Shown here: in pieces, positions 1,925-27,074 of the stretch
Position numbering within the stretch: position 1 is the first letter of the stretch
How the letters are laid out: every line of letters starts with the position of its first letter
Translations under genes and position numbers: made by a program
The notes under the pieces: model-generated
What the model was told of the DNA's origin: nothing
The model's input: the letters and a program-made list of their open reading frames with translations, nothing else
The model's database searches: none
Assembly (NCBI GenBank): GCA_029936815.1
Contig: JAPYRX010000009.1
Span: 24,682-66,209, forward strand
Length of the DNA stretch: 41,528 nucleotides
Direction of reading: 5' to 3'
DNA from: Dehalococcoidia bacterium
GTDB lineage: Bacteria > Chloroflexota > Dehalococcoidia > Lucifugimonadales > GCA-002694895

Positions 1925-3022
1925 ATGAGAAAATCTAAGTTATTTCTTCTCTTTTTATCAGTTATGTCTTTAACTTTAATCCTTGCGTGTAGCTCGGAAA
2001 CTGAAGTTAAAGAAGTAGTGAAGGAAGTAGAAGTAATGATCGAAAGACCATCTACATTAAAAACAGTTCAAGACCGTGGTACGCTTAAATGTGGAGTTAA
2101 CGATAACCTAACAGGTTTCGGAGTTCTAACATCAAGTGGAGCATTTGAAGGTTTTGACATTGATTATTGTAAAGCTGTTGCAGCTGCAATTTTCGGTGAT
2201 GCAAGCAAAGTGGAATATGTTCCATTAACTGCATCAGCTAGATTCGAAGCTCTTGGATCTGGTGAAATAGATTTATTAATCAGAAATACTACTTGGACAG
2301 CTAGTAGAGATAGAGATTTAGCTAATGATTTTACAGCTACTACTTTCTATGATGGACAAGGAATGATGGTATATGCTGATAGTGGATATCAAACAATTGA
2401 AGACATGGAAGGCGCAACTGTTTGCGTATTACAAGGCACAACAACTGAGTTGAACCTTGATGATAGATTTATGTCTGCAGGATTGAAATATACTCCATTG
2501 ACTTTTGAAACTAACGATCCTTTACAAGCAGCTTTTGAAGAAAAAAGATGTGATGGTTGGACAACAGATAAATCTGGATTAGCATCTAAAAGAGCAGAAT
2601 TTCCTGCTTCAGCGGGGGGCCCTGATTCATTAGTGGTTTTGGCAGAAACTCTATCAAAAGAGCCTTTAGGTCCTTTAACTAGAGATAACGATAGTAAATT
2701 TTATGACGTTGTTCAGTGGGTTGTGTTTGGATTAATTCAGGCAGAAGAAAGCGGAATAACAAGTTCTAATGTTGCTGCAATGGCTGCTAGCCCTAAAGAC
2801 CCTGGTATGGCACGATTATTAGGTGTTCCATATAGCGGTGGAGAAGTATCTGATTTTCAATTTGGTGTTGACCCTACGTTTATTCAACACGCGATTAAGG
2901 CAGTTGGAAACTATGGAGAAATCTATGAGAAGCATTTAACTCCTTTAGGATTGACCAGAGCTGGTTCATTAAACGCTTTATGGACTGACGGCGGATTAGT
3001 TTACGCACCTCCGTTCAGATAA
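1925..3022 (+). CDS. aapJ: Amino-acid ABC transporter substrate-binding lipoprotein (AapJ-like)
   Basis: This 365-residue protein binds amino acids outside the membrane for the importer encoded downstream. The start at 1925 is set by AAGGAG at 1913-1918 and by the signal sequence, which ends in a lipobox (LILAC, Cys at about residue 22). An in-frame TTG at 1844 would bury the lipobox and coincides with a promoter -35 box. A Glu/Val/Lys linker follows the lipid-anchored Cys. The mature part matches family-3 binding proteins: GTLKCGVN, GFDIDYCKAVAAAIFGD, FEALGSGEIDLLIRN and CVLQGTTTELNL. The length and the two long permeases downstream fit the general L-amino-acid (AapJ/BztA) subgroup. Confidence 0.93.
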   Translation: MRKSKLFLLFLSVMSLTLILACSSETEVKEVVKEVEVMIERPSTLKTVQDRGTLKCGVNDNLTGFGVLTSSGAFEGFDIDYCKAVAAAIFGDASKVEYVPLTASARFEALGSGEIDLLIRNTTWTASRDRDLANDFTATTFYDGQGMMVYADSGYQTIEDMEGATVCVLQGTTTELNLDDRFMSAGLKYTPLTFETNDPLQAAFEEKRCDGWTTDKSGLASKRAEFPASAGGPDSLVVLAETLSKEPLGPLTRDNDSKFYDVVQWVVFGLIQAEESGITSSNVAAMAASPKDPGMARLLGVPYSGGEVSDFQFGVDPTFIQHAIKAVGNYGEIYEKHLTPLGLTRAGSLNALWTDGGLVYAPPFR

Positions 3023-3049
3023 ACTATTTTTGTAAATAGTAAATTAAAT

Positions 3050-3079
3050 AAAATGTCGGGCATTTTTGCCCGACATTTT
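3050..3079 (+). terminator. Intercistronic hairpin, attenuator or mRNA-stabilising element
   Basis: A perfect 12-bp inverted repeat (AAAATGTCGGGC / GCCCGACATTTT) with a 6-nt loop is followed by an AT-rich stretch. It lies between the binding-protein gene and the permease genes of one operon. Such hairpins usually raise binding-protein mRNA over permease mRNA, by partial termination or by protecting the upstream 3' end. Confidence 0.8.
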
Positions 3080-3103
3080 ATTTATTAAGGTATATTTAAA
3101 ACT

Positions 3104-4300
3104 ATGAATCTTTTTATTGACAAATTATCTAAATGGAGTAGATCTCAAAGAAATAGAAATTTGATTTATCAAATTATATTTCTATTGTTTATTGGACTTT
3201 TTGTTAATTATTTAATTGCAAAAGCTTCATTACTCGAACTTACACTCAATCATTTTAATAGTAGAGCTGGATTCGGTATCAGTCATACATTTTTAATTGA
3301 CTATTCTAGTAATAATGATAGATGGTCTGCGTATTTTACAGGTGTAATTAATACTATTAGAGTTTGTTTGGTTGCTATAGTTATAGCAACCTTAATTGGC
3401 ACTCTAATGGGCGTTGCAAGATTATCCAAAAATATTTTATTTTCTACAATTGCTTTCCTTTATGTAGAAATATTAAGAAACACTCCATTATTGATTCAAA
3501 TTATTTTTTGGCAAATAATATTCTTAAAACTTCCGAGAATCTCTGAGGCATTAACATTAGGAAGTACTGTTGTTATTTCTAATAGAGGAATTCTTCTTCC
3601 TTACGCTAAAGCATCTGAAACTAATAGTTCAAATATATTTTTATATATAATCTTATTAGCAATAATTTTGGCATTTTGTATTAGTTATTACTTAAATAAA
3701 AGAGAAGATATCGATGGCATGAAATTTAAACTATTTAATATTAATTTAAATGGAAATTTAACTGGAACACTCATATTTTTGATTATTTCTGTTTTTGCAT
3801 ATTACATACTTCAAAAACCATATATTATAGATCTTCCATCTCTTTATCAAAATTCGAAAGGTACATTTCTACAGTCAGGCGGATTTGAATTTTCCCCTGA
3901 ATTTGGAGCGATTTTATTTGCGTTAGTTATATATACAGGTACTTTTATTACCGAAATTGTAAGAGGTAGTATACAATCTCTCCCAAAAGGCCAAACTGAG
4001 GCAGCATTGTCATTAGGTTTGTCAAATTATCAAACTATGACAGTCATTCTTCTTCCACAAGCTTTAAGGTCAATTATTCCTCCTTTGACGAATCAATTTT
4101 TAAACCTTACAAAAAATTCTAGTTTAGCCGTTGTAATTGCTTACCCTGAGCTATTTATGGTTTCAAGAACTATCATGAATAATTCTGGCAGAGCTTTGCC
4201 GGTATTTTTCCTTATTTTATTTACCTATTTAAGCCTAAGCTTATTTATTTCTGTTTTTATGAATTTGATTAATAGAAGAGTTACTAGGATAGGCACATAA
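3104..4300 (+). CDS. aapQ: Amino-acid ABC transporter permease (AapQ-like)
   Basis: This is a 398-residue membrane protein, the first of two permeases of the importer. It has an N-terminal membrane segment at about residues 20-42, then the His/Glu/Gln-type permease domain: GVINTIRVCLVAI, YVEILRNTPLLIQI, a long inserted loop with further membrane segments, and the C-terminal EAA loop (EAALSLGLSNYQTM...ILLPQALR), which docks on the ATPase. The extra length relative to ordinary HisQ-type permeases is typical of AapQ. The last base of its TAA is the first base of the next gene's ATG (4298-4302), implying translational coupling. Confidence 0.93.
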   Translation: MNLFIDKLSKWSRSQRNRNLIYQIIFLLFIGLFVNYLIAKASLLELTLNHFNSRAGFGISHTFLIDYSSNNDRWSAYFTGVINTIRVCLVAIVIATLIGTLMGVARLSKNILFSTIAFLYVEILRNTPLLIQIIFWQIIFLKLPRISEALTLGSTVVISNRGILLPYAKASETNSSNIFLYIILLAIILAFCISYYLNKREDIDGMKFKLFNINLNGNLTGTLIFLIISVFAYYILQKPYIIDLPSLYQNSKGTFLQSGGFEFSPEFGAILFALVIYTGTFITEIVRGSIQSLPKGQTEAALSLGLSNYQTMTVILLPQALRSIIPPLTNQFLNLTKNSSLAVVIAYPELFMVSRTIMNNSGRALPVFFLILFTYLSLSLFISVFMNLINRRVTRIGT

Positions 4301-5463
4301 TGTTAGATAAAAAATTAAAATGGATATTTAACACATTTTCAGGATCAGTGTTTAATACTGTTATTTCTACTTTTTGTATAGTATTACTTTTTTTCGTGAT
4401 TAATAATTTACTTGGATTTATATCTAATTCTGAATGGGCAGTTGTTACTGAAAATAGAAGACTACTATTAATTGGGAGGATGCCTCAAGAAGAAGAATGG
4501 AGAGCTTGGAGTATATTATGGATATCTTCATTTTTAATATTTTCATCTCTTAAATCTTTTATATCACCATCTAAAAAGGAATTGACGTTTATTTTCTTGA
4601 TAGTAATGATTTTATGTTTGATTTTTACTACTGAATCATCAATTTTCAAAGTAATCATTACACTTATGATTTCTTCTTTTTCATATCTTTTGACTAAATA
4701 TATTTCTGATACTCCTATCATCCATAAATTCAATAAATTTTTGATTTTCCTATGGATATTCCTTGTACCTTTGGTTTTTTGTTTATTACTAATTGCAGAT
4801 GGTCCAAAGCCTACATTGTGGGGAGGATTTTTATTAAATATTATTTTAGCTTCCGTAGCCATAGGAATAGGATTTCCTTTAGGTCTTTTATTCGCACTCG
4901 GGAGAGCTAGTTCTCTTCCTGCAATTAAAATTGTTTGTACTGTTTATATTGAAACGATAAGAGGAGCACCTTTAGTCGCTTGGTTACTTTTAGCTTGGTT
5001 TGTTTTACCTAAATTTTTACCTGAATTTTGGGGATTAAATGATATTAGTGTTGTGGTGAGAGCAATGATAATTTTATCAGCATTTACTAGTGCGTACACA
5101 GCTGAAGTAATCAGAGGAGGACTTCAATCAATCCCTAAAGGACAAATTGAAGCTGCGGATAGTTTGAATCTGAATGTTTTTACAAAAACATCAATAATTA
5201 TTTTACCTCAAGCAATTCGTGTTGTTATACCAGCTTTAATTAGTACTTTTATTGGCGTCTTTAAAGATACTTCTTTAGTATTTATACTCGCACTAACTGA
5301 TTTATTACAAGTTGGAAGAATTATTCCCGAACAAGATCCAGAATTTTTTGGTAAAGCTTTAGAAGCATTATCTGTTGTGGCATTTATGTTTTGGATCGTT
5401 TCTATTGCACTTTCAAATTTAAGTTCAAGAGTGGAAAAATCAATGGGTATTGGAACCCGATAA
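4300..5463 (+). CDS. aapM: Amino-acid ABC transporter permease (AapM-like)
   Basis: This 387-residue polytopic membrane protein is the second permease of the Aap-type importer. Long N-terminal hydrophobic segments precede the core permease domain (YIETIRGAPLVAWLLLAW; EVIRGGLQSIPKGQIEAADSLNL; ILPQAIRVVIPAL). The EAA-like loop EAADSLNLNV is clear. The start overlaps the preceding stop by one base. The gap to the ATPase gene is 20 bp and contains AGGAG. It probably forms a heterodimer with the upstream permease. Confidence 0.93.
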   Translation: MLDKKLKWIFNTFSGSVFNTVISTFCIVLLFFVINNLLGFISNSEWAVVTENRRLLLIGRMPQEEEWRAWSILWISSFLIFSSLKSFISPSKKELTFIFLIVMILCLIFTTESSIFKVIITLMISSFSYLLTKYISDTPIIHKFNKFLIFLWIFLVPLVFCLLLIADGPKPTLWGGFLLNIILASVAIGIGFPLGLLFALGRASSLPAIKIVCTVYIETIRGAPLVAWLLLAWFVLPKFLPEFWGLNDISVVVRAMIILSAFTSAYTAEVIRGGLQSIPKGQIEAADSLNLNVFTKTSIIILPQAIRVVIPALISTFIGVFKDTSLVFILALTDLLQVGRIIPEQDPEFFGKALEALSVVAFMFWIVSIALSNLSSRVEKSMGIGTR

Positions 5464-5483
5464 AATTATATTAGGAGTTAATT

Positions 5484-6242
5484 ATGAAAAACAAGTCTAA
5501 AAAGCAAATCGGGAATGAAATTATATCGACTGATAATATAACTAAATCTTTCGGGAAATTTCAGGCTTTAAAAGGAATAACTTCTAAAATTTATGAACAA
5601 GAAGTTGTAGTTGTTTTTGGTCCTTCGGGGTCAGGTAAATCAACTTATATCCGTACTCTAAATAGGTTAGAACCTCATGACTCTGGGAAAATAATTGTTG
5701 ATGGAGTTGAAATTACAGATGATGTAAAAAATTTACAACATGTTAGATCTAATGTTGGTATGGTATTTCAACAATTTAATTTATTTCCTCATTTGTCAGT
5801 TTTAAGAAACATTACCTTAGCACCGCAAAAAGTTAAAGGCCTGAAAAGAAGTGACGCTGATGAAGTAGCGATGAATTTGTTAAAAAGAGTTGGAATTCCT
5901 GAGCAAGCTAGCAAATTTCCTAGTCAATTGTCTGGTGGACAACAGCAACGATTAGCAATAGCTAGAGCACTTGCGATGCAACCAAAAATTATGTTGTTTG
6001 ATGAACCAACTTCAGCATTAGACCCTGAAATGATTAAAGAAGTTCTTGAAGTTATGACTGAATTAGCCGAGTCTGGCATGACAATGATTTGTGTAACGCA
6101 CGAAATGGGATTTGCTAGAGAAGTTGCCGATAGATTTCTTTTTTTTGATGAAGGGTTAATTGTTGAAGAGGGTACTCCTGATCACTTTTTTAATAATCCT
6201 CAAGAAGATAGAACTAAACTATTTTTAAGTCAAATTCTTTGA
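5484..6242 (+). CDS. aapP: Amino-acid ABC transporter ATPase (AapP/GlnQ-like)
   Basis: This 252-residue ATPase powers the importer. Walker A GPSGSGKS is at 46-53, the Q-loop ([11 protein letters not shown]) near 93-103, the signature LSGGQQQR at about 149-156, Walker B IMLFDE ends at Glu174, the D-loop SALDPE follows, and the H-loop His is at 206 (THEMGF). The sequence is of the polar amino-acid (PAAT) class. The start is preceded by AGGAG. It completes a four-gene operon with no missing subunit. Confidence 0.96.
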
Positions 6243-6250
6243 AAAATAAA

Positions 6251-7141
6251 ATGGCTAAATATATTTTAATTGTTAATCCTTTCAGTGGGAAAAAGAATGG
6301 ATTACAAATATTGAAAAAATTAGAATCGATATTTGAAAATCACAATATTGAATTAGATACTTTTATAACAAAAAGACCAGGGCATGCCTTTCAATTAGCT
6401 AATGAAAAAAACCTTGAAAATTATAAAGGCTTACTTTTGATAGGCGGAGATGGAACTTTTCATGAATTAGTAAATGGAATGATGATGAGAGATGATAAAC
6501 TCCAACTCCCTATTGGCATTATACCTGGAGGTACGGGGAATTCTTTTTTATTAGATTTAAACATTACAAATCCATCACAATCTATTGATAAAATTCTGTC
6601 TAATAAAATAAGAAAAATTGATATTTTAAAAACAGAATTTGATAATAATGTTAAATACTCTATTAACTTAGTAGGTTGGGGAATGATTACAGATGTGGGA
6701 TTAACTGCAGAAAAATTTCGATGGTTTGGATACACAAGATATACTATTGCTGCAATTGTTGAAATTTTATTTAAAAAACCTAGAACTGCAAATTTGACTA
6801 TTGATGGTAAAAGTATTGATGGAAAATTTATGTTTGTTATTGCTTGTAACTCACAACATGTTGGAAAAGGTATGAAAATGGCACCCAAATCCAAATTAGA
6901 TGATGGTTTGATGGACGTGATCATAGCAGAAGGTAATATACCTAGACTCAGATTATTAAAGGTTTTACCAAAATTGTTTGACGGCACTCATATTAATGAA
7001 CCAGAAATTAAATATTTCCAATGCAAAAAACTCCTATTGGATTCTAAAACCAACGATAATTTAAATATAGATGGTGAAATGATAGGTACTAGCCCATTTG
7101 GTATTAATATTTTGAAGCAACAAATAGAAATTTTTGGTTAA
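6251..7141 (+). CDS. Diacylglycerol/sphingosine kinase-family lipid kinase
   Basis: This 296-residue protein has the DAGK catalytic domain: IVNPFSGKKNG at the N-terminus, then the nucleotide-binding GGDGTFHELVNG, then GIIPGGTGNSF. The C-terminal half has the second beta-sandwich domain ending in NIDGEMIG. The family phosphorylates diacylglycerol, ceramide or related lipids using ATP; the substrate here cannot be assigned. The ATG at 6251 gives the standard N-terminus. A TTG at 6239 overlapping the previous stop would add four residues and is an alternative. It directly follows aapP on the same strand and may be read through from it. Confidence 0.88.
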   Translation: MAKYILIVNPFSGKKNGLQILKKLESIFENHNIELDTFITKRPGHAFQLANEKNLENYKGLLLIGGDGTFHELVNGMMMRDDKLQLPIGIIPGGTGNSFLLDLNITNPSQSIDKILSNKIRKIDILKTEFDNNVKYSINLVGWGMITDVGLTAEKFRWFGYTRYTIAAIVEILFKKPRTANLTIDGKSIDGKFMFVIACNSQHVGKGMKMAPKSKLDDGLMDVIIAEGNIPRLRLLKVLPKLFDGTHINEPEIKYFQCKKLLLDSKTNDNLNIDGEMIGTSPFGINILKQQIEIFG

Positions 7142-7159
7142 ATATTTTCATTAGAAATT

Positions 7160-8638
7160 TCATACCCAATTCATTGATCTTTTTACAGCATTATTCCAAT
7201 TTTCAAACAACTTATTTATTCTTTCTTTATCAAATGTAGGTTTGAATTCAGTATTAATATCATTCAAACTTTGTAAATGACTCAAATCCCAAAAAGAATT
7301 TTTTAATCCAGCAATAAATGCCGCTCCCAAAGCTGTCATTTCTGTATTTAGAGGCCTCTTTAAAATTATGCCTAATATATCAGATTGAAATTGCATTAGA
7401 TAATTATTATTTGATGCTCCCCCATCTACTTTAAGAACTTTAATATCATCATCTATGTCATCTTCCATGCTTAACAGAACATCTTTTGTCTGATACGCAA
7501 TCGAATTTAATGTTGCTTTAATGATATCTGATTTGTTTGTGTCTCTTGTGATACCGATGATTAGACCTCGTGCATTCATATCCCAATGAGGAGCACCTAA
7601 ACCATTAAATGCGGGAACAACATATAAATTGTTTTCTATTGAAGATTTTAATGCTTCATATTCCGATTCATTTGATGATTTTATTAATCCCATCTCATCT
7701 CTCAACCATTGAATGCCGGCTCCTCCAATAAATATACTTCCTTCTAGTGCGTATGAAATTTTGTTATCTATACCCCAAGCAATTGTAGATAACAATCCAT
7801 TTTTACTTCTTAATATTTGATCGGAAGTGTTCATTAACGTAAAACATCCAGTCCCATATGTGTTTTTTGTAGAGTATTTTTCAAAGCATTTATGTCCAAA
7901 TAGTGATGCTTGTTGATCTCCTAATACTCCAAGGATTGGAATATTTTGCCCACTTAAGTTTAAAGTACCAAAATTATCAGAAGAGTTTTTAACTTCAGGA
8001 AGTATTGATAACGGGATATTTAATTCTTTCAATATCTCAATGTCCCACTCTAATGTATTTATGTTATATAGCATTGTTCTTGATGCATTGGAAAAATCAG
8101 TTAAATGATATTTTTCTTTAGTAAGATTCCAGATTAACCATGAATCTATTGTTCCAAATAATAATTTACCTTCTTTTAATTTTGATTTTGCGGTTTCATT
8201 GTTATCTAATAACCATTTGACTTTTGTTGCTGAGAAATATGGACCTATTAACAATCCCGTTTTTGAAGAAATTTCTTTCTCTAAATTTTTTTGTTTTAAA
8301 TCTTTACAAATATTTGCTGTACGAGTATCTTGCCATACAATTGCATTATGGATTGGAATTCCTGTTTCTTTATCCCATACAACGGATGTTTCTCTTTGGT
8401 TGGTAATTCCTATTCCAGCAATGTTTTTATGATCAATATTATTTTCATTAATTACATTTTTTATAACTTCTTTAATAGAGTTTAAGATTTCAATTGGATC
8501 ATGTTCAACCCAACCCTCTTGTGGATATATTTGAGTTATCTCTTTTTGAGATATAGCAACAATATTTGCTTTTTCATCAACTAAAATGGCTCTTGAACTA
8601 GTTGTTCCTTGGTCTAAAGATAGAATATATTTTTTCAT
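7160..8638 (-). CDS. glpK: Glycerol kinase
   Basis: This 492-residue FGGY-family kinase converts glycerol and ATP to glycerol-3-phosphate. The N-terminus LSLDQGTTSSRAI is diagnostic for glycerol kinase. So are GWVEHDPIEI, the GITNQRET loop, WQDTRTANIC, TYGTGCFTLMN, the hexokinase-like LEGSIFIGGAGIQWLRD and PAFNGLGAPHWD. The C-terminal ATP-binding KVDGGASNNNYLMQFQSDIL is intact. Length matches the family. No glpF or glpD is next to it. It is convergent with the lipid-kinase gene and divergent from the NIPSNAP gene. Confidence 0.96.
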   Translation of the reverse strand: MKKYILSLDQGTTSSRAILVDEKANIVAISQKEITQIYPQEGWVEHDPIEILNSIKEVIKNVINENNIDHKNIAGIGITNQRETSVVWDKETGIPIHNAIVWQDTRTANICKDLKQKNLEKEISSKTGLLIGPYFSATKVKWLLDNNETAKSKLKEGKLLFGTIDSWLIWNLTKEKYHLTDFSNASRTMLYNINTLEWDIEILKELNIPLSILPEVKNSSDNFGTLNLSGQNIPILGVLGDQQASLFGHKCFEKYSTKNTYGTGCFTLMNTSDQILRSKNGLLSTIAWGIDNKISYALEGSIFIGGAGIQWLRDEMGLIKSSNESEYEALKSSIENNLYVVPAFNGLGAPHWDMNARGLIIGITRDTNKSDIIKATLNSIAYQTKDVLLSMEDDIDDDIKVLKVDGGASNNNYLMQFQSDILGIILKRPLNTEMTALGAAFIAGLKNSFWDLSHLQSLNDINTEFKPTFDKERINKLFENWNNAVKRSMNWV

Positions 8639-21132: not shown

Positions 21133-21903
21133 TTAATTATTTTGGTTATCAAGCCATGCTTGTAGTTTTTTCCCCATAGCTTTCCCTAGGCTCGAATTTG
21201 ATTGCACAGGGCCAGTGTAATTATTTGCAGAAGCTATAAAATCTTTGATAGCTTTGGGTCCTGCATCATTTAATAATATTGTCATAAATTCCTCGGAATC
21301 ATTTTTTCTCATAGGTTGCCATTCAATATAATACGGAGTGACTCTTATTTTGTTTTCCATCATTTTTCGTTCATCCCCATAATGATCTAGAGCCATTTTT
21401 ATTGTTGATGGATCAGTCCAATCAGATTTGTAAATAACATTACCGTATCTGTTAACTATATAAGTCATGTTTGGCAATCTTCCGTAAGCATGATGAATAT
21501 CACCTTCCAGAGAGTCTATTAACATGGTTCTATTAATATATTTTTTTGTCATCAATTTTGCGTGTTCAATTTTTTGTTCGAAAGAAGTTAGGTGGGGTAT
21601 TTTTTCACCAGGGTGAGCTTCACGAGTATAGATAAATATAAAATTAAATATATCTCCAAAATCTTCTACTAATTTGTTGAAACCTGGCGCCGCCAGGGCA
21701 CATTCTGATCAGGTTATAGACCCAAATTCGATAATAGTTGTTTTCTCTTTCCAATAAGTAGACAGTTCTTCCCAAATTTCTTCTTTTAGATTATAAACTT
21801 TACCATCAGGAGCTTTTGTACCTGCGTTAGCAATATTTGGAAAATCGATAAATGCTTGCATATCAAAATCTAATGGAAATGTATCGTAATTATAAGAATT
21901 CAT
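21133..21903 (-). CDS. Iodothyronine-deiodinase-like selenoprotein (Sec65, in-frame TGA read as selenocysteine)
   Basis: Read through one in-frame TGA, the frame gives 256 residues with a thioredoxin-like fold. Before the TGA: TIIEFGSIT. The TGA is residue 65. After it: SECALAAPGFNKL, VEDFGDIFNFIFIYTREAHPG. This matches the deiodinase active site (FGS-x-T-Sec, then an IYxxEAH segment), with Sec exactly where the animal enzymes have it. Cys68 makes a Sec-x-x-Cys pair, suggesting redox rather than strictly deiodinating chemistry. There is no signal peptide. A promoter, an AGGGG site 5 nt before the ATG and a SECIS-like hairpin are all present. Taken as two genes, the halves would be a 64-residue stub and an N-terminally truncated piece, which is less likely. 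The substrate is unknown. Confidence 0.88.
21683..21697 (-). promoter_or_regulatory. Bacterial SECIS-like hairpin
   Basis: On the minus strand, CCTGGC-GGC-GCCAGG forms a perfect 6-bp stem with a 3-nt loop starting with G. It begins 11 nt after the TGA at 21711-21709, placing the loop about 18-20 nt downstream, in the range known for bacterial SECIS elements. Thirteen of 15 bases are G/C, unlike the surrounding AT-rich gene. A GAA/TTC pairing could extend the lower stem across a bulge. It would recruit SelB with Sec-tRNA. Confidence 0.82.
21709..21711 (-). other. Selenocysteine codon (UGA recoding site)
   Basis: The TGA is in frame with strongly deiodinase-like sequence on both sides, at the position of the catalytic selenocysteine. 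TGA is an ordinary stop elsewhere in the window (for example at 687-689), so general reassignment of the codon is excluded. Confidence 0.85.
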
Positions 21904-26322: not shown

Positions 26323-26369
26323 TTATAATAATATTATAGAATATGTTTATTAATTTATTTGGAGAATAT

Positions 26370-27074
26370 ATGAATATTTTATGTTACAAAGATAGTTATT
26401 TGAAAGAATGTAAATCTACCGTTATTGAAGTCAATGAATTAGGGATTGTCTTAGATCAAACAGTTTTTTATCATGGAGGGGGAGGTCAACCCTCTGATAC
26501 AGGAAAACTAATATATAATTCTATTGTCTATGAAGTGAAAAATATAAATAAAATAGACGGTAAAATCTTTCATGTAATTGATGGAGAAAAACCCGAAGTC
26601 AATTCAATTGTAGAAGTTTTTATAGATTGGGAAAACAGATATAAATTGATGAGAACTCATACAGCTTTACATATCTTATGTGGAGTGATTTGGAGAGATT
26701 ACGGAGCTTCTGTTACTGGTGGAGATATGAAACCATTATCCGGTCGAATGGATTTTGAACTCAATGAAATGTCAGTAAATTTTTCTAAAGAAGTAGAACA
26801 AAAAATTAATTTCGAAGTTAAATCATCAAGAAATATCAAAGTATATGATTTACCAAGAGAAGAAGCTTTTAAAATTCCTGATTTGATTAGAACAAAAATC
26901 AACCTACTGCCAAAAGGAATAGAATCAATTCGTATTGTTGATATAGAAGGATTGGATTTACAAGCTGATGGAGGAACTCATGTTCATAACACTTCGGAAG
27001 TTGGATACATAAAAATGGTTGGTCATGAAAGTAAGGGTAAAAATAACAAAAGATTAAGAATTGAAATTATTTAA
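26370..27074 (+). CDS. alaX: AlaX-type alanyl-tRNA editing protein
   Basis: This 234-residue free-standing editing domain hydrolyses Ser- or Gly-tRNA(Ala). The GGAG at 26361-26364 before the ATG at 26370 decides the start; an ATG at 26343 would add nine residues. The N-terminus has TVFYHGGGGQPSDTG (beta-barrel domain of AlaRS-like proteins). Zinc ligands are His97 and His101 in RTHTALHIL, and the later DGGTHVHNTSEVG segment supplies another ligand. Length fits AlaX-M. It is convergent with fdhA, with 1 bp between them. Confidence 0.9.
   Translation: MNILCYKDSYLKECKSTVIEVNELGIVLDQTVFYHGGGGQPSDTGKLIYNSIVYEVKNINKIDGKIFHVIDGEKPEVNSIVEVFIDWENRYKLMRTHTALHILCGVIWRDYGASVTGGDMKPLSGRMDFELNEMSVNFSKEVEQKINFEVKSSRNIKVYDLPREEAFKIPDLIRTKINLLPKGIESIRIVDIEGLDLQADGGTHVHNTSEVGYIKMVGHESKGKNNKRLRIEII

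Follow-up and report, generated by a model that had tools for sequence, protein, structure and literature searches.

The minus strand of the window (the whole 41,528 nucleotide stretch of DNA that was analyzed) encodes a deiodinase-like protein with a selenocysteine (Sec) codon at position 65, and it is very nearly certain that this is a genuine selenoprotein. The DNA belongs to a marine bacterium of the Chloroflexota, in an order of SAR202 type. Its function is best explained, with a probability of roughly 60%, as that of a soluble cytosolic selenol-thiol reductase or peroxidase on a deiodinase scaffold, which would cycle via a Sec65-Cys68 selenenylsulfide; this figure overlaps with the estimate for a narrower peroxidase function, as peroxide is among the substrates included here.

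Proteins of this kind are already known. Bacterial deiodinase-like proteins containing Sec or Cys were described from the Sargasso Sea in 2005, and a redox role was suggested (PMC1088965). The GOS data contain 22 Sec and 21 Cys proteins of this type (PMC2398784), and a "Deiodinase-like protein, PF00837, UxxC" was tabulated in 2022 (PMC9312934) and 2026 (PMC13188914). The window protein shares with them the Pfam family, the place of Sec, the Cys at +3, the SECIS-type hairpin and an occurrence in marine bacteria. It differs in displaying USEC at the active site instead of the common UPYC or UPPC; among the homologues examined, USEC is confined to the genus of the window. The present analysis adds the host organism, a division into subfamilies and the placement of the relay residues in the sequence. 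No report of a tested function for any bacterial deiodinase-like selenoprotein was found in the literature, and a text search found no paper linking SAR202 with a selenoprotein or a deiodinase.

The gene and its reading frame

The first-pass annotation described a 771 bp frame with one TGA and left the strand unstated. This frame is present on the minus strand, where it starts with ATG at 21903 and ends with TAA at 21133. The principal features are the following.

21133..21903, minus strand: gene of the deiodinase-like selenoprotein, 256 codons and a TAA, Sec at codon 65 (read-through translation; Pfam T4_deiodinase 48.6 bits, cut-off 27; homologues aligned over the full length)
21709..21711, minus strand: in-frame TGA, selenocysteine 65 (codon also TGA in relatives, both within the genus and farther away; Sec machinery encoded by the genome)
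21700..21702, minus strand: TGT codon of Cys68, three residues after Sec, which is a candidate for the resolving thiol in UxxC (invariant in the aligned subfamily)
21683..21697, minus strand: SECIS-type hairpin within the coding sequence, 6 bp stem CCUGGC/GCCAGG, apical loop GGC (stem position kept across relatives; covariation)
21613..21621, minus strand: codons Glu95-Ala96-His97 (EAH), putative equivalents of the deiodinase proton-relay/substrate Glu and His, mouse Dio2 Glu160 and His162 (alignments; residue roles from PMC11592359)
21466..21477, minus strand: codons Leu143-Pro144-Asn145-Met146 (LPNM), Pro before strand 147–150 (alignments, predicted model)

The TGA is the only one in the 256 codon frame and lies in the context TTIIEFGSIT-U-SECALAAPGF. 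The read-through protein continues downstream with YTREAHPGE, in which EAHPGE occupies residues 95–100. The list of open reading frames made with translation table 11 shows just the 140 aa part that follows the TGA. A plus-strand reading of 21133–21903 was rejected, as it contains many stop codons.

Decoding of the TGA codon

The genome to which the window belongs, as contig C31, comprises 35 contigs with 1.46 Mb in total and is about 90% complete; the sel genes were searched for individually in it. All four components are found: a tRNA-Sec gene (61.3 bits; called as tRNA-SeC by ARAGORN, with anticodon TCA, i.e. UCA in the RNA), SelA (420 bits), SelB (274 bits, cut-off 242) and SelD (311 bits, cut-off 125). 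The computed evidence shows UGA-65 to be decoded as Sec by this machinery of the genome itself, with a hairpin that lies directly downstream of the codon. The selD gene of the same genome (G000:C11:107327-108253, L016) has an in-frame TGA itself, and its product is likely to be a selenoprotein too. Across the order, SelA is present in 51 of the 59 genomes with a TGA-containing PF00837 match, a co-occurrence that does not discriminate, since SelA is present in 202 of 250 genomes anyway.

Copies of the gene in three metagenome-assembled genomes (MAGs) of the same genus (G027, G028 and G029; loci L061, L060 and L059, respectively) are 82%–87% identical to that of the window. In these copies the codon in question is likewise TGA, within the motif SIT/SVT-U-S-x-C. 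A TGA at the matching codon is also seen in dozens of separately assembled genomes of relatives; a read error that changed TGG, CGA or TGC to TGA is therefore excluded. In comparisons among the window gene, L060 and L059, dN/dS is 0.034–0.059 for the 64 codons before the TGA and 0.053–0.065 for the 191 codons after it; these ratios are rough, as synonymous sites are near saturation. Purifying selection is clear on both sides of the TGA.

An alternative reading has the TGA as a real stop codon or as an error, in which case the locus would be a pseudogene or would yield a 140 aa product started from an internal TTG. This is supported by automatic calling of open reading frames, which shows just the downstream 140 aa frame, and it is highly improbable in view of the same codon recurring in independent assemblies, the dN/dS of about 0.03–0.065 on either side, the Sec machinery, the covarying hairpin and homology that is unbroken across the TGA. 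The functional selenoprotein proposed in the first-pass annotation is thus borne out, and homologues with either Sec or Cys at this position do exist.

The SECIS-type hairpin

Counted from the U of UGA, the hairpin occupies nucleotides 15–29 and has a G in its apical loop. In an alignment of 31 distinct sequences from the order, 94.1% of the stem cells are paired. The same 31 sequences show 40 double-change cells in the stem compared to 9.4 in shuffles, a count to be read with the fact that the alignment mixes two subfamilies coded differently at this location and that part of the double changes separates the two clades. The stem pairs vary inside each of the two clades as well. The covariation score is 0.601 vs. 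0.181 in shuffles; none of 500 shuffles is as high, nor does any shuffle attain the double-change count, and the signal is lost when the partner is shifted by one to three columns.

Taken by itself, the window hairpin is no more stable than shuffled sequences (z of −0.2 to −0.7). The case for a SECIS-type element rests on the covariation because the stability comparison is uninformative. In another set, 16 of 40 sequences show a hairpin in the same register with 5 or 6 of the 6 pairs, and these are mostly from Chloroflexota, Thermomicrobiota and Acidobacteriota. Proteobacterial copies display other foldable arrangements.

Protein family and fold

The PF00837 profile search, which the first-pass annotation had suggested as a check, places the read-through protein well above the family cut-off. 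The peroxiredoxin families stay below theirs, i.e. AhpC-TSA (PF00578) at 25.0 vs. 26 and Redoxin (PF08534) at 17.4 vs. 26.6. The match to the NCBIfam model NF038285 (deiodinase_rel), at 52.8 bits, is far under its cut-off of 250. A profile of 18 relatives searched against the PDB finds mouse DIO3 (1.2e-21) and DIO2 (8.2e-18), followed by ResA/TlpA-type reductases.

The AlphaFold2 model has a mean pLDDT of 81.2 and a pTM of 0.77. Its first Foldseek match is mouse DIO3 (E-value = 5.7e-9, TM 0.54/0.71), with ResA next and peroxiredoxins also among the matches. Computation thus shows a predicted thioredoxin fold of the deiodinase/peroxiredoxin/ResA type, in which Sec opens the first active-site helix of the model. 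Sec65 aligns with the Sec of DIO2 and DIO3, in agreement with the deiodinase position that it had been given from the sequence.

With thiol-disulfide oxidoreductases of the ResA/TlpA type the window protein shares the thioredoxin fold, an xxC active site and a Pro before the following strand. Unlike these, it has Sec in place of the first Cys and the deiodinase EAH, and no export signal or membrane anchor is seen in its sequence. The Prx-like thiol:disulfide oxidoreductase selenoproteins (PF00578), which are common in ocean metagenomes, display UxxC in a peroxiredoxin-like fold; the window protein differs from them in its placement under the PF00578 cut-off and well over that of PF00837.

Subfamilies and relatives

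A search of 250 genomes of the order with PF00837 gives 60 genomes above the cut-off; in almost all of these, the match has a single in-frame TGA. Sorted by the residues that follow Sec, the homologues fall into three main kinds, UPPF, UPPC and the UPYC/UPFC/USEC group to which the window protein belongs (e.g. L140 is UPFC and L120 is UPYC). The 104 distinct sites with Sec include 73 of the UxxC type and 28 in which Phe is at +3. The named relatives of the window's group are from Chloroflexota including SAR202, Thermomicrobiota, Acidobacteriota, Myxococcota and Pseudomonadota, with one from Actinomycetota. The subfamily of the window protein is of the Sec-x-x-Cys type and occurs in Chloroflexota, Acidobacteriota and Proteobacteria.

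The UPPF proteins of the same order (L029–L058, from the order-wide PF00837 search) have the superfamily, Sec and EAHP in common with the window protein. They differ in the UPPF motif and in a D-loop-like insertion, DGWQTDSN. They are without LPNM and have UPPF, EAHP-[ST]-DGW and the insertion in common with animal deiodinases. The tree groups them with the mouse DIO fragments (support 95/77, with long branches) and places the window protein on the opposite side, where the UPPC proteins are united with the UPYC/USEC group in one clade (97/90) that contains the window's group (100/97). The tree is midpoint-rooted and the animal branch is long, and the kinship of the UPPF proteins with animal deiodinases is suggestive, not proven.

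Several homologues have other residues at the Sec position. Cys is found in L078, L079, L143 and L152, which display CPMT in place of UxxC and are without the +3 Cys. Five proteins from Planctomycetota MAGs (L149, L153, L155, L157 and L158) have Glu (FGSLTEPAF) and keep E-S-H and LPNM; these are probably catalytically changed or inactive paralogues. A Deltaproteobacteria MAG (L114) has several adjoining deiodinase-like genes at 2884–7480, i.e. one with UPYC, a second (3861–4583) in which Trp takes the place of Sec (FGSITWPPF), and another TGA-containing frame from 6714 onward.

The active site compared with animal deiodinases

The proton relay proposed for Dio2 consists of Ser127, Thr129, Tyr157, Glu160, His162 and His182 (PMC11592359). 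By alignment, the first five correspond to Ser62, Thr64, Tyr92, Glu95 and His97 of the window protein, and the EAH segment pointed out in the first-pass annotation has Glu95 and His97 opposite the deiodinase Glu and His. In the column of Dio2 His182 the window's genus has Leu104, with His103 adjacent, and most relatives have His. The annotation had also regarded a Cys at +3 as unexpected in animal deiodinases, and the alignment does show Phe in them at that position.

Animal DIO1–3 (structures 4tr3 and 9h48) and the window protein are alike in the thioredoxin fold, Ser-x-Thr-Sec, Tyr and Glu-x-His, at about 20% identity. Unlike the animal enzymes, the window protein is without the omega-loop or D-insertion and its conserved Trp and Asp, which the alignment shows in animal DIO and, shortened, in the bacterial UPPF proteins. 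In Dio3, Trp207 and Asp211 of this loop help to form the thyronine site (PMC11592359). Alignment with animal deiodinases also shows no PPF segment and no Phe before beta-3, and the proximal Cys found at −2 in DIO1 and DIO3 is replaced by Ile63. Inspection of the N-terminus, MNSYNYDTFPLDFDMQAFIDF, finds no hydrophobic stretch and so no N-terminal transmembrane anchor. Instead of the Phe before beta-3, the window protein has the Pro of LPNM, and it has extra C-terminal helices. Pro144 aligns with the position of the cis-Pro of thioredoxins, where animal deiodinases are without Pro.

Gene neighborhood

The local gene order is kept within the genus: one flank has genes for a DUF1330 protein, a TPP enzyme and a small hydrophobic protein, and the other has an MFS transporter gene. 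The selenoprotein gene is convergent to the TPP enzyme gene and stands alone. There is no obvious redox or dehalogenation partner among the neighbors, and no adjoining thioredoxin, reductase or peroxide-stress gene. Synteny outside the genus likewise shows no functional partner and no tellingly shared neighbor. Apparent large clusters of neighbors were rejected as partners, as they turn out to be the selenoprotein gene, antisense frames or families of a generic kind. Elsewhere in the window, at 26343–27074 on the plus strand, is a gene for a free-standing alanyl-tRNA-synthetase-like editing domain protein of the AlaX type (tRNA_SAD and part of tRNA-synt_2c).

Proposed function and alternatives

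From the Cys three residues past Sec, a thioredoxin-like redox reaction appears to be the most likely chemistry. The Sec65 selenolate would be activated by Ser62, Thr64, Tyr92, Glu95 and His97 as in the deiodinases, and would attack an oxidized small-molecule or protein substrate such as a peroxide, a disulfide or a similar electrophile. Cys68 may then resolve the oxidized selenium to give a Sec65-Cys68 selenenylsulfide, and regeneration would be by a general cytosolic thiol reductant, either thioredoxin or a low-molecular-weight thiol. This cycle is proposed because Cys68 at +3 and Pro144 of LPNM are present and a proximal Cys of the DIO1 type is absent. In DIO1 the oxidized Sec is resolved by the nearby proximal Cys as a selenenylsulfide (PMC9141512), and by analogy a resolving Cys at another place is plausible in the window protein.

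As a special case of the reductase or peroxidase, the protein may be a narrow peroxiredoxin- or GPx-like peroxidase, in which Sec65 would reduce H2O2 or organic hydroperoxides for protection of the cell with Cys68 resolving. The peroxiredoxins among the Foldseek matches and the peroxiredoxin motif in the deiodinases themselves (PMC11592359) are consistent with this, as are the AhpC-TSA and Redoxin matches, which are weak and below cut-off. However, Sec-containing peroxiredoxins have TxxU, and UxxC is the thioredoxin-like arrangement (PMC1088965); the AhpC-TSA match is also much weaker than that to T4_deiodinase. The narrow function is thus a tentative one and on the unlikely side.

The strong conservation of EAH, which is common to the deiodinases, counts against the redox reading and leaves room for a possible dehalogenase. 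The missing redox or peroxide-stress neighbors and the Leu104 of the genus in the Dio2 His182 column, where most relatives have His, also count against the redox reading. A reductive dehalogenase of marine organohalogens would have the selenolate take X+ from an iodinated or brominated organic compound, as animal deiodinases do, with Glu95 and His97 giving the proton and Cys68 recycling the selenenyl halide. The Sec position, Ser-x-Thr-Sec and the Tyr, Glu and His of the relay are conserved, DIO3 is the best structural match, and SAR202 and other marine MAGs are among the named relatives. Against this, the substrate-side features of deiodinases, i.e. the omega-loop Trp and Asp, PPF, the Phe before beta-3, the proximal Cys and the anchor, are absent, the neighbors are not genes of halogen metabolism, and the +3 Cys and the LPNM Pro are typical of ordinary thiol-disulfide oxidoreductases. 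The halogen-organic substrates raised in the first-pass annotation are thus not supported, and this activity appears improbable for the window protein.

Significance

Deiodinase-like selenoproteins of bacteria have been on record for 20 years, and the window gene provides a member that is clean, conserved and expressible and has a defined subfamily. The UPPF type, which is closer to animal deiodinases and occurs in different families of this order, forms a contrast to it. It is rather doubtful that the UxxC deiodinase-like clade as a whole represents soluble bacterial selenol dehalogenases of marine organohalogens, with Cys68 replacing the animal proximal Cys as the recycling thiol; if this were true, the chemistry of deiodinases would be older than thyroid hormone and widespread among Chloroflexota of the deep ocean. 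The UxxC and UPPF pair bears on the question of whether deiodination is an ancestral activity or one that animals evolved on a redox scaffold.
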